Source of the DNA: Pelosinus fermentans DSM 17108
Lineage (GTDB): Bacteria; Bacillota; Negativicutes; DSM-13327
NCBI RefSeq assembly: GCF_000271485.2
Contig: NZ_AKVN02000001.1
Location: 3,249,501-3,313,500, forward strand
DNA length: 64,000 bases
Direction: 5' to 3'
Notes under the pieces: generated by a model
The model's database searches: none
The model's input: only the letters and a program-made list of their open reading frames with translations
Told to the model about the DNA's origin: nothing
Made by a program: the position numbers and the translations under genes
Shown here: piece after piece, positions 8,056 to 25,680 of the stretch
Layout of the letters: each line of letters opens with the position of its first letter
Position numbering within the stretch: position 1 is the stretch's first letter

Positions 8056-8868
8056 TTAAACTAAAACTTCATTCATACTGCCACTTCGATATCCAGATAA
8101 ATCAACAGCGACATATGTAAAGCCAATTTTTTTAAGTCCTTGCTCAATTTGCGCTGCTACCTCTGGAACCGTAATCATTCCAATATTTTCTGGTGACACT
8201 TCAATACGGGCAATATCTCCATGGTGACGTACTCGAACTTGCCCTGGACAAAACTTTTTTACTAATTCTTCAGCTTTTTCGATTTGACTAAGCCTCTCTG
8301 CCGTAATCGAAAGTCCATAAACCACCCTTGAGGAAAGGCAGGCAGCACTTAATTTATTCCAAGTCTGCAAGTTCCATTCCTTAGATATTTCTCGAATATC
8401 TTTTTTTGTTAAGCCAGCTTCGACTAAAGGGCTCCTTACATGGTCTAGTTCTTCCACCGCTTTAATCCCAGGACGATAATCGGATAAGTCGTCGACATTC
8501 GATCCATCCAATACCCAATTATAATTATTTTCTTTTGCCCATTCAACTAATACTGAAAATCGTTCTTGTTTACAGTAATAACAGCGTTGATTGTTATTCT
8601 CGACAAAATCCGGGCTATTTAATTCGCTAATATTTAAAAGTATGTGTTTAATACCAATTTCTTTCGCAATTTCAATTGCTTCTTTTTTTTCACTTTCCGG
8701 CAATGTCTCAGAATAAGCAGTAATAGCTATCGCCTTTTCACCAACAGCTCTTACTGCTGCTGCTGCTAAGAAACTGCTATCCACGCCTCCAGAAAAAGCT
8801 ACGACAATACTCCCCAGTTCAGTTAATAAATGATTCAGTTTCTCCATTTTTTCAGTACTATTTCCCAC
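8056..8868 (-). CDS. larE: ATP-dependent sacrificial sulfur transferase LarE
   Basis: A 270-residue PP-loop ATP pyrophosphatase. LarE adenylates pyridinium biscarboxylic acid mononucleotide and donates sulfur from its own cysteine to build the nickel-pincer cofactor of lactate racemase and related enzymes. The ATP loop is VAFSGGVDSS (about 23-32), a CYYCK motif follows near residue 97, and the sacrificial cysteine is in SAACLSSRVVYG (about 173-184). The start is GTG at 8868 with AAAGGAG 7 bases upstream. No larA, larB or larC lies in the window. It follows the SAM-riboswitch-controlled small gene by 102 bases without a terminator, so it may share that transcript; TTGGCA and TATATA 18 bases apart in the gap could instead be its own promoter. 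Confidence 0.9.
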   Translation of the reverse strand: MGNSTEKMEKLNHLLTELGSIVVAFSGGVDSSFLAAAAVRAVGEKAIAITAYSETLPESEKKEAIEIAKEIGIKHILLNISELNSPDFVENNNQRCYYCKQERFSVLVEWAKENNYNWVLDGSNVDDLSDYRPGIKAVEELDHVRSPLVEAGLTKKDIREISKEWNLQTWNKLSAACLSSRVVYGLSITAERLSQIEKAEELVKKFCPGQVRVRHHGDIARIEVSPENIGMITVPEVAAQIEQGLKKIGFTYVAVDLSGYRSGSMNEVLV

Positions 8869-8970
8869 TGTGATTCTCCTTTGTGCGCCAGTTTATAAGA
8901 AAATTCATATATCTTTTATTTACTTCTATATACCACGGCACTTTCCTTCCTGCCAATAAAATTTGATACC

Positions 8971-9168
8971 TTATATTCCATCCCCATCGACACCTTCCAA
9001 GGAAGGATAGTAAATATTCTGTACAAATTTAACCACAACACCGTTTCTTATAGTAATAATAATTTCTTCATTTCCCTGAGGAACTACTTTTATTTTCCTT
9101 GATGGTGGTATTACTATTTCTTTTCTATCTTCAACTGCAGCAACTGCAAGATGATTGCTCTGTGCCAT
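8971..9168 (-). CDS. 65-residue uncharacterised protein under SAM-riboswitch control
   Basis: A small soluble protein with no recognised domain. It is rich in Val, Ile and Lys with a predicted beta pattern (KEIVIPPSRKIKVV, EEIIITIRNGVVVKFV) and an acidic Gly/Asp tail GVDGDGI. It contains no Cys and no His beyond the N-terminus. The ATG at 9168 is fixed by AAGGGAGG 8 bases upstream; the frame continues upstream into the riboswitch, but that part is RNA structure. A complete SAM-I riboswitch and terminator lie directly before it, which predicts expression when S-adenosylmethionine is low. That suggests a role in sulfur or methionine metabolism or in supporting LarE next door. Confidence 0.75.
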   Translation of the reverse strand: MAQSNHLAVAAVEDRKEIVIPPSRKIKVVPQGNEEIIITIRNGVVVKFVQNIYYPSLEGVDGDGI

Positions 9169-9190
9169 TTGAATTCCTCCCTTATAATGC

Positions 9191-9247
9191 AAAAAAATGT
9201 TATTTAAATCTCCCATTTCATCTGAAAGGGGACTCAAATAACATTTT
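9191..9247 (-). terminator. Expression-platform terminator of the SAM riboswitch
   Basis: On the minus strand AAAATGTTATTT (9247-9236) pairs with AAATAACATTTT (9205-9194), with further pairing GGGG/CTCC inside, and a seven-T run follows at 9197-9191. It lies between the aptamer and the ribosome site of the 65-residue gene. Confidence 0.85.
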
Positions 9248-9253
9248 AGTCCT

Positions 9254-9354
9254 CTCTCATCTGTCAGGATAAATCCTGCTGGAATTAGCACCTCTGCATT
9301 GCTGCCGGTTGCCGGGTGTCATCGGGCCAGTCCCTCGACCACTCTTGATAAGAG
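9254..9354 (-). promoter_or_regulatory. SAM-I (S-box) riboswitch
   Basis: Read on the minus strand this 101-base stretch has the S-box core: the P1 arm CTCTTATC and its partner GATGAGAG close the structure, followed by AAGAGTGGTCGAGGGACTGG, then CCCGATGACACCCGGCAACC, then GGTGCTAATTCC and CAGGATTTATCCTG. These conserved blocks occur in the right order and spacing. SAM binding would stabilise P1 and allow the downstream terminator to form, turning off the 65-residue gene and possibly larE. Confidence 0.95.
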
Positions 9355-9376: not shown

Positions 9377-9405
9377 AATATATCATGAAATAACACAGTT
9401 AGCAA
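9377..9405 (-). promoter_or_regulatory. Sigma-A-type promoter for the SAM riboswitch transcript
   Basis: TTGCTA (9405-9400) and TATATT (9382-9377) on the minus strand are spaced by 17 bases, about 22 bases before the aptamer begins. Confidence 0.65.
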
Positions 9406-9520: not shown

Positions 9521-10788
9521 TTACTTTTTAATTGCCCGGTATGCAATGTCTTTTCGATAATGCATTCCTTTAAATTTTATAGATCCAATTGCCTGATACG
9601 CCTTATCTACTGCTTGTTTAATGGTCGAATCTGTAGCTGTTACACCAAGTACACGCCCACCACTCGTCAGTACCTGTCCGTCGCGGCTAGCGGTGCCAGC
9701 ATGAAATACATAAGCACCTTGTTCTTCCGCTTTGTCGATACCGCTAATGATGTCACCCTTAGCATATTCTCCAGGGTACCCTCCTGCTGCTAACACTACA
9801 CATACAGCAGCCTCATTCTTCCAATTAACAGAAGTATCTGCCAATGTACCAGCTATGCAAGCTTTCATAATCGTCACTAAATCGCTATCTAGCAAAGGTA
9901 GTACAACCTGGGTTTCAGGATCACCAAATCGGGCATTAAATTCAATGACTTTAGGACCATCTTCAGTCATAATCAGCCCTAAATATAAGCATCCACAATA
10001 GAAACATCCTTCACTTTCCATGGCAGCAATTGTAGGCTGCAAAATTTCTTTCAGAACCTGGGCACTGATCGCTGGGGTAATAATCGGAGCAGGTGCATAA
10101 GCGCCCATCCCCCCGTATTAGGTCCCTGATCATGATCAAAGACTCGCTTATGATCTTGAGCTGCCACCATCGGGATGATCGTCTTTCCATCAGTAAAAGC
10201 TAATATAGAAGCTTCCTCACCCACTAAAAATTCCTCTATGACCACCTGCCTGCCTGCCTGACCAAAGGCTCCGTCACACAGCATCATGTCAACCGCTGCT
10301 AGAGCTTCATCAATGGTCATTGCTACCACAACACCTTTACCAGCTGCCAATCCATCGGCCTTTACAACTACAGGCGCTCCTTGAGCGTTTATGTATGCCT
10401 TTGCCATATCAGCCTGAGTAAATACGGCAAATTTAGCCGTAGGAATATCATACTTCTTCATTAAATTCTTAGCAAAGGTTTTTGAACTTTCAATCTGGGC
10501 AGCAGCCTGGGTAGGACCAAAACAGGCAAGACCATTTGCCTGAAAAACATCTACGATACCATTTGATAAAGGAATTTCAGGACCTACTACAGTAAGTGTA
10601 ACCTTTTGCTCTTTGGCAAAAACCACAAGGGCAGCATTATCCATGATATCAAGTTCTACGCACTCGGCGATTTTTGCAATCCCTGGATTGCCAGGGATAC
10701 AGAATATTTTTTCTACATCTTTATTCTCTTTTAATTTAGACACTAATGCATGCTCACGTCCGCCGCCACCAATGACCAATAGATTCAT
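9521..10788 (-). pseudogene. purD: purD, phosphoribosylamine-glycine ligase, interrupted by a one-base frameshift
   Basis: PurD joins glycine to 5-phosphoribosylamine with ATP (step 2 of purine synthesis). The gene starts at 10788 (ATG with GGGAG upstream; LLVIGGGGREHALV at the N-terminus) and carries the ATP-grasp regions ESSKTFAKNLM and VVKADGLAAGKGV. The frame breaks inside the highly conserved GPNTGG-MGAY motif: a run of six G (10109-10114) should be seven. Downstream the other frame resumes exactly with MGAYAPAPIITP and runs normally to the stop at 9521 (EFNARFGDPETQVVLP). Both halves look well conserved, so a sequencing error in the homopolymer or a very recent mutation is more likely than an old pseudogene. 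It is the last gene of the pur operon. Confidence 0.88.
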
Positions 10789-10842
10789 GGCTAATCTCCC
10801 TTCCAATGGGCTGTTTGGCAACTGCCCCATAAATTGATATAC

Positions 10843-25385: not shown

Positions 25386-25413
25386 ATCAATATTTATATA
25401 AAATATATAAAAC

Positions 25414-25497
25414 AGCTTCCCTACGTTGGTACTAACCACATCAGGTTCAAAGGGTCAGGAATTTTCATTCCCGCTCTGCCAAACGGCTCCCCCAGCC
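25414..25497 (-). promoter_or_regulatory. TPP riboswitch, thiS-proximal copy
   Basis: On the minus strand the Thi-box blocks are GCTGGGGGAGCC, the hairpin GCC-GTTT-GGC, ACCCTTTGAACCTGATGTGG and TTAGTACCAACGTAGGGAAG. The element matching the usual CUGAGA reads CAGAGC. It is nearly identical to the copy at 25579-25661. Confidence 0.93.
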
Positions 25498-25520
25498 AAG
25501 TATTCAATTGTTACCCTAAA

Positions 25521-25552: not shown

Positions 25553-25578
25553 TATATCAATTGCTATAAATATAATAT

Positions 25579-25661
25579 TAGCTTCCCTACGTTGGTACTA
25601 ACCACATCAGGTTCAAAGGGTCAGGAATTTCTTCCCGCTCTGCCAAACGGCTCCCCCAGCA
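25579..25661 (-). promoter_or_regulatory. TPP riboswitch, promoter-proximal copy
   Basis: It has the same blocks as the downstream copy, including GCTGGGGGAGCC, CCTTTGAACCTGATGTGG and ACCAACGTAGGGAAGC, and the same CAGAGC variant. Only the P3a-side segment (GGGAAGAAATTCC) and flanks differ. Both aptamers with their terminators must be passed to reach thiS. Confidence 0.93.
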
Positions 25662-25680
25662 TTATTATTCGATTGACTCA

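Follow-up and report, generated by a model that had tools for sequence, protein, structure and literature searches.

A SAM-I riboswitch precedes a truncated YezD-like gene with a CysE-like tail beside a [4Fe-4S]-type larE in Pelosinus fermentans DSM 17108

In Pelosinus fermentans DSM 17108, a SAM-I (S-box) riboswitch leader precedes a 65-codon gene encoding a truncated relative of the YezD/OscA proteins with a CysE-like C-terminal tail, and this gene lies beside a larE gene whose product is predicted to be of the [4Fe-4S] type; judged from its sequence and that of its relatives, the locus is real and well conserved. We consider that it is best explained, with a probability of roughly one half, as a short S-box-controlled unit of mini-YezD and larE in which the small protein would dock on cysteine synthase (CysK) and larE would be transcribed in two ways. 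The window, i.e., the whole stretch of DNA that was analysed, comprises 64,000 nucleotides (G000:C1:3249501-3313500 of a 5.03 Mb genome), and the span of 8056-9354 that a first-pass annotation had singled out within it proved exact. The features of the locus (window coordinates) are as follows.

9377-9405, minus strand: promoter-like element of the S-box transcript, TTGCTA (9405-9400), N17, TATATT (9382-9377)
9254-9354, minus strand: SAM-I (S-box) aptamer, RF00162, 90.5 bits, E 2.9e-20
9224-9258, minus strand: predicted antiterminator, GAGAGAGGACT (9258-9248) pairing with AGTCCCCTTTC (9234-9224)
9194-9247, minus strand: intrinsic terminator hairpin followed by a U run, -24.4 kcal/mol, z -5.64
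8971-9168, minus strand: mini-YezD/OscA-like gene, 65 codons, with a variable N-terminal half, the hairpin EEIIITIRNGVVVKF and the tail LEGVDGDGI-COOH
8927-8956, minus strand: promoter-like element of larE, TTGGCA (8956-8951), 18 bases, extended TGG and TATATA (8932-8927)
8056-8868, minus strand: larE, GTG start, CXXC-C type PP-loop sulfur insertase, TIGR00268, 323.4 bits
7997-8025, minus strand: terminator hairpin closing the unit after larE, 13-pair stem followed by a T-rich tract

The aptamer covers the full covariance model (positions 1-108), its score lies well above the RF00162 gathering score of 44.4 bits, and nine related loci carry the same SAM-I element. From its parts, the leader is predicted to be the usual SAM-off attenuator. 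The antiterminator is the minimum-energy fold of the leader without the 3' strand of the terminator (-46.6 versus -44.3 kcal/mol with P1 enforced); in this energy model it uses the 3' strand of P1 and excludes both P1 and the terminator. None of 200 shuffles was as stable as the terminator hairpin, both arms of which are conserved in seven genomes. The promoter-like hexamers and their spacing are retained at the seven orthologous loci and, since shuffled sequences hold such sites as often as the real leader does, the weight of this element rests on that conservation. Both the position of the S-box ahead of the small gene and the completeness of aptamer, terminator and promoter, as described in the first-pass annotation, are thus confirmed. 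As in other SAM-I riboswitches, a complete aptamer, antiterminator and terminator precede sulfur-related genes, but where enzymes or transporters of methionine and cysteine metabolism would be usual, the genes here are those of a mini-YezD and possibly of LarE. In some relatives a palindrome, TTGCTAACTATATCA-N5-TGATATAGTTAGCAA, overlaps the S-box promoter (window 9377-9405; L014-L016); it is perfect in L014, decayed in DSM 17108, and is possibly an operator.

The 65-codon ORF, preceded by a Shine-Dalgarno sequence, is present in seven of the eight genomes of the genus (DSM 17108 counted in), with relatives in records of both P. fermentans and P. propionicus; the eighth genome is a fragmented assembly without the small gene and without larE. 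The other six orthologues share 39 to 97% identity with the DSM 17108 copy. Every one of the seven copies has an S-box upstream, the conserved terminator and larE downstream, so that the combination for which a comparative search had been proposed does recur in relatives, and the gene upstream of the S-box varies among the loci. Across the seven genomes dN is 0.00-0.35 in the last 32 codons and up to 0.8 in the N-terminal half, values that indicate purifying selection on the former and near freedom to change in the latter. A low-confidence AlphaFold model (mean pLDDT 63) folds residues 35-53 into a hairpin and leaves the tail flexible.

Against Pfam and NCBIfam models the 65-residue protein gives no match above cut-off. 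It had been taken for an unknown orphan, a description ruled out by the orthologues in seven genomes and by homology to YezD; it is instead a divergent, truncated relative of YezD/OscA (DUF2292 is PF10055, and NF033785 is the sulfur starvation response protein OscA). The last 31 columns of a seven-protein profile matched, weakly (E 0.07), the C-termini of sister-genus proteins, 145 and 154 residues long, which are encoded directly behind S-boxes and are tandem DUF2292 (YezD) proteins (1e-22). With hhalign, the alignment to tailed YezD reached 96.6% (to 97.1%) probability and E 6e-10 over 32 columns, the tail giving much of the signal. A further profile match, in a 333-residue protein of L019 (E 0.05), was judged to be due to chance, and only chance-level matches were obtained for relatives of YezD in the PDB. 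A tandem YezD of DSM 17108 itself matches the NCBI OscA model at 5e-9, below the model cut-off. The small protein shares with YezD/OscA the beta-hairpin segment, the place behind S-boxes and the GDGI tail of tailed Negativicutes YezD, but it keeps the C-terminal half only: the Q-[IV]-[ED]-x-x-E-K core and the N-terminal helical part are absent from its alignments (the YG...QI(E/D)RTEK core and preceding helices of YezD being gone), and its scores fall under the Pfam and NCBIfam thresholds. It is best called a mini-YezD, homologous over the conserved half, and not a formal family member.

DUF2292 is a widespread small family, and a search of the literature found no molecular function for DUF2292/yezD. 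The gene for OscA lies in a unit with a sulfate-binding protein gene and has a role in sulfur starvation, and loss of OscA leads to chromate sensitivity (PMC2996968, PMC3596284). A role in sulfur metabolism, as proposed for the small protein in the first-pass annotation, is likely. The hairpin motif E-I-x-I-x-I-R-x-G-x-V-x-x-F-E recurs in additional short ORFs within sulfur clusters of other families (L070:1144-1296, L076:6210-6368, L089:3062-3214 and L075:1527-1718), and three of these four are missing the GDGI tail.

GDGI is the C-terminus of all seven Pelosinus small proteins, and an exact C-terminal G[DE]GI is found in 35 of 48 different YezD proteins in the fetched loci (YGDGI in 12 of these), the other 13 being single-domain, tailless and mostly ending in EKIR/K plus two residues. 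Of 38,749 stop-to-stop background ORFs in 2.4 Mb of the DSM 17108 genome, five have a terminal GxGI and none has G[DE]GI. The C-terminus of E. coli CysE is FEYGDGI, and the CysE tail inserts into CysK and inhibits it. The peptide HHTFEYGDGI is a competitive inhibitor of the aeruginosa CysK with a Ki of about 0.5 uM (PMC12895370), and the CdiA-CT toxin has a GYGI end for the same CysK site (PMC7690452). The small protein resembles both in its C-terminal G-x-G-I, free carboxylate and flexible tail, the terminal isoleucine on such a tail being a criterion of CysE-type docking, but the carrier is unrelated to serine acetyltransferase or a CDI toxin, and CysK binding is putative here. A second unit in DSM 17108 consists of an S-box, a metB-like gene, a tandem YezD (...VYGDGI) and cysK, in whose product the TSGNTG loop and QQF segment are retained, features that are permissive only. 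The CysE candidates of DSM 17108, from about half of the genome searched, end in GIKSI and DWVI, sharing only the terminal isoleucine, and this was counted against CysK docking. As its basis is a shared terminal motif and gene context, we put docking of the small protein on CysK forward as a hypothesis. A CysE-like tail on a DUF2292 protein provides a specific functional test, namely CysK binding, and if docking is true a riboswitch-made small protein would join the few known CysK ligands. More tentatively, the YezD/OscA proteins of Negativicutes and the mini form might all be SAM-riboswitch-controlled CysK regulators with a CysE-like tail, with LarE in the same circuit.

The tail could also be put to another use, the small protein being a sulfur-starvation factor of the OscA kind with another partner, e.g., a sulfate or methionine transporter, MetY, LarE or a desulfurase. 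The association of OscA with a sulfate-binding protein gene, sulfur starvation and chromate resistance (PMC2996968, PMC3596284) would suit such a role, as would the YezD genes that adjoin metY, metQ and larE as well as cysK; however, conservation is highest in the tail, which is exactly C-terminal in 35 proteins, as in CysE and CdiA-CT, and cysK often adjoins YezD genes, which makes another partner rather unlikely in our view. It is far less probable that the ORF is a leader peptide or a decayed remnant without protein function. Such an ORF would be expected to be short and nearly unconstrained in its N-terminal half, to fail the family models and to coexist with an intact YezD elsewhere in the genome, all of which is the case, but this is difficult to reconcile with a frame that is intact in all seven orthologues, low dN over the final 32 codons, an invariant GDGI end and a preceding Shine-Dalgarno sequence.

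The larE product scores well above the curated TIGR00268 cut-off of 150 bits and has three characteristic cysteines, a CXXC in RCYYCKQ and a third in AACLSSR. LarE enzymes of this CXXC-C type bind a [4Fe-4S] cluster and keep their own cysteine sulfur, whereas the enzyme of Lactobacillus plantarum has no CXXC-C and sacrifices Cys176 (PMC9283937). The motif rules out a sacrificial-type LarE (single active-site cysteine, no CXXC), and because of it the earlier statement that this LarE consumes its own cysteine sulfur is unlikely to hold. Apart from this difference in cysteines, the DSM 17108 and L. plantarum enzymes belong to the same family and have the same expected reaction. With the [4Fe-4S]-type LarE of Thermotoga maritima it shares the CXXC-C motif, the SGGVDS P-loop and TIGR00268, but it is encoded among clustered sulfur genes downstream of an S-box, at a distance from larB and larC. 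LarE is single-copy in the DSM 17108 genome, LarB and LarC are encoded side by side at another locus (2.62 Mb), and the LarA N-domain has eight protein matches, some of them weak. Among 120 genomes, the LarE/LarC co-occurrence counts were 100/2/2/16 (Fisher p 7e-16, kinship ignored); the two were jointly present or absent in 116, with assemblies <90% complete accounting for three of the four exceptions. Given that this is the sole LarE, that LarB, LarC and LarA-domain proteins are present and that LarE and LarC co-occur, the gene at 8868-8056 probably serves nickel-pincer synthesis. A separate clade of S-box LarE was considered and rejected, as the tree has no such split: some LarB/C-linked copies are interspersed with the S-box-linked ones and others are placed apart from them. 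Elsewhere in the genome (G000:C1:3757684-3759875), a SAM riboswitch driving aminotransferase and metQ-like genes has a LarA-domain gene close by in divergent orientation, and eight relatives show this at the corresponding position.

The small gene and larE are on the same strand, separated by 102 bases, and this pairing is kept in seven genomes; no terminator-like hairpin was found in the gap, which bears out the first-pass annotation on this point. The gap does hold the promoter-like element, TTGGCA-N17/18-TGGTATATT, which is conserved in the seven genomes, its spacer and flanks drifting. Its shuffle p is <=0.002 in six genomes and 0.03 in DSM 17108, where the -10 is weakened (TATATA, with TATATT in other genomes and TATAGT in one). 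Outside the genus, a terminator separates larE from the genes before it in the 5 gaps inspected, or larE has a promoter and its own attenuator; therefore, S-box control of larE is not general, and within Pelosinus the conserved element in the gap makes such control probably partial. Thus, dual transcription of larE under partial S-box control appears the best reading, and the suggestion that the riboswitch regulates nickel-pincer synthesis may stand in this weakened form. Two findings had been named in advance as speaking against a linked unit: a separate larE start in the gap, to which the promoter-like element in seven of seven genomes corresponds, and a lack of conservation of the small gene behind S-boxes, which the orthologous loci contradict. 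If the former is given full weight, larE could in effect be riboswitch-independent, with its own promoter in the gap and an adjacency inherited from an old sulfur gene cluster. The retention of TTGGCA-N17/18-TGGTATATT amid drifting surroundings favors this, as do the terminators or separate leaders that precede larE in other families, but read-through is expected across a gap without a terminator, the -10 is weakened in DSM 17108 and larE adjoins the S-box gene in all seven genomes, and we regard full independence as possible though somewhat doubtful.

Under the preferred reading of dual transcription and CysK docking, the S-box attenuator would drive a short unit of mini-YezD and then larE. 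At low SAM the antiterminator would form and the unit would be transcribed, and at high SAM the P1 helix of the aptamer would form and the terminator would halt transcription. The small protein, presumably a single beta-hairpin between a floppy N-terminus and a flexible CysE-like G-D-G-I tail, would insert this tail into the CysK active site and either lower CysK activity or displace CysE. When SAM is short, sulfide could thereby be diverted to homocysteine and methionine, away from cysteine. Transcripts of larE would arise both by read-through from the S-box and from the gene's own promoter, and the [4Fe-4S]-type LarE would contribute the thiolation to nickel-pincer cofactor synthesis, acting with LarB and LarC from their separate locus.

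Similar neighborhoods recur in several other families of Negativicutes, where an S-box, one or two YezD genes, metY, larE and cysK occur in varying combinations.

S-box, YezD, metY, larE and cysK loci: G107 (L070), G075 (L071), G030 (L075), G035 (L076), G021 (L089), G002 (L038)
S-box, metB-like gene, larE and cysK: G091 (L079)
larE adjoining metQ, yezD and cysK: L072, L088
larE adjoining a cysteine desulfurase and NifU: L074

The Pelosinus order could derive from an S-box-yezD-metY-larE order by loss of metY. The recurrence of larE in clusters with S-box, yezD, metY and cysK suggests that nickel-pincer synthesis is managed within sulfur metabolism in Negativicutes, a connection for which we found no published report in the open literature.

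Gaps before larE of three genomes contain a motif, GCTGATCAG-(n)-AGACTGAAGGC, that is overlapped by the 5' arm of the following terminator. An exact search recovered 36 copies in 31 of 300 genomes of the class, with no copies of a reversed-pattern control in the same 300; sites include L071:5299-5318, L075:1793-1812, L079:2287-2305, L099-L128 (position 1501) and, in the DSM 17108 genome itself, G000:C1:2089152-2089170. The genes downstream are mostly sulfur-related: cysK, metY, metN, metQ, larE and genes for a cystine-binding protein, a PatB-type lyase and ThiF-like and nitrite/sulfite reductase-like proteins. No Rfam match was found in the four loci tested; covariation is good in the terminator and, in a short alternative helix, falls chiefly on one pair, and the leader may be an undescribed attenuator before sulfur genes. 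Next to the S-box locus, purD is broken into the ORFs 9521-10108 and 10051-10830: relative to L008, a G/C run (window 10105-10115) has lost one base, which is either a sequencing error or real. Farther along the window, two tandem TPP riboswitch aptamers lie on the minus strand at 25401-25503 and 25567-25667, with 63 bases between them.
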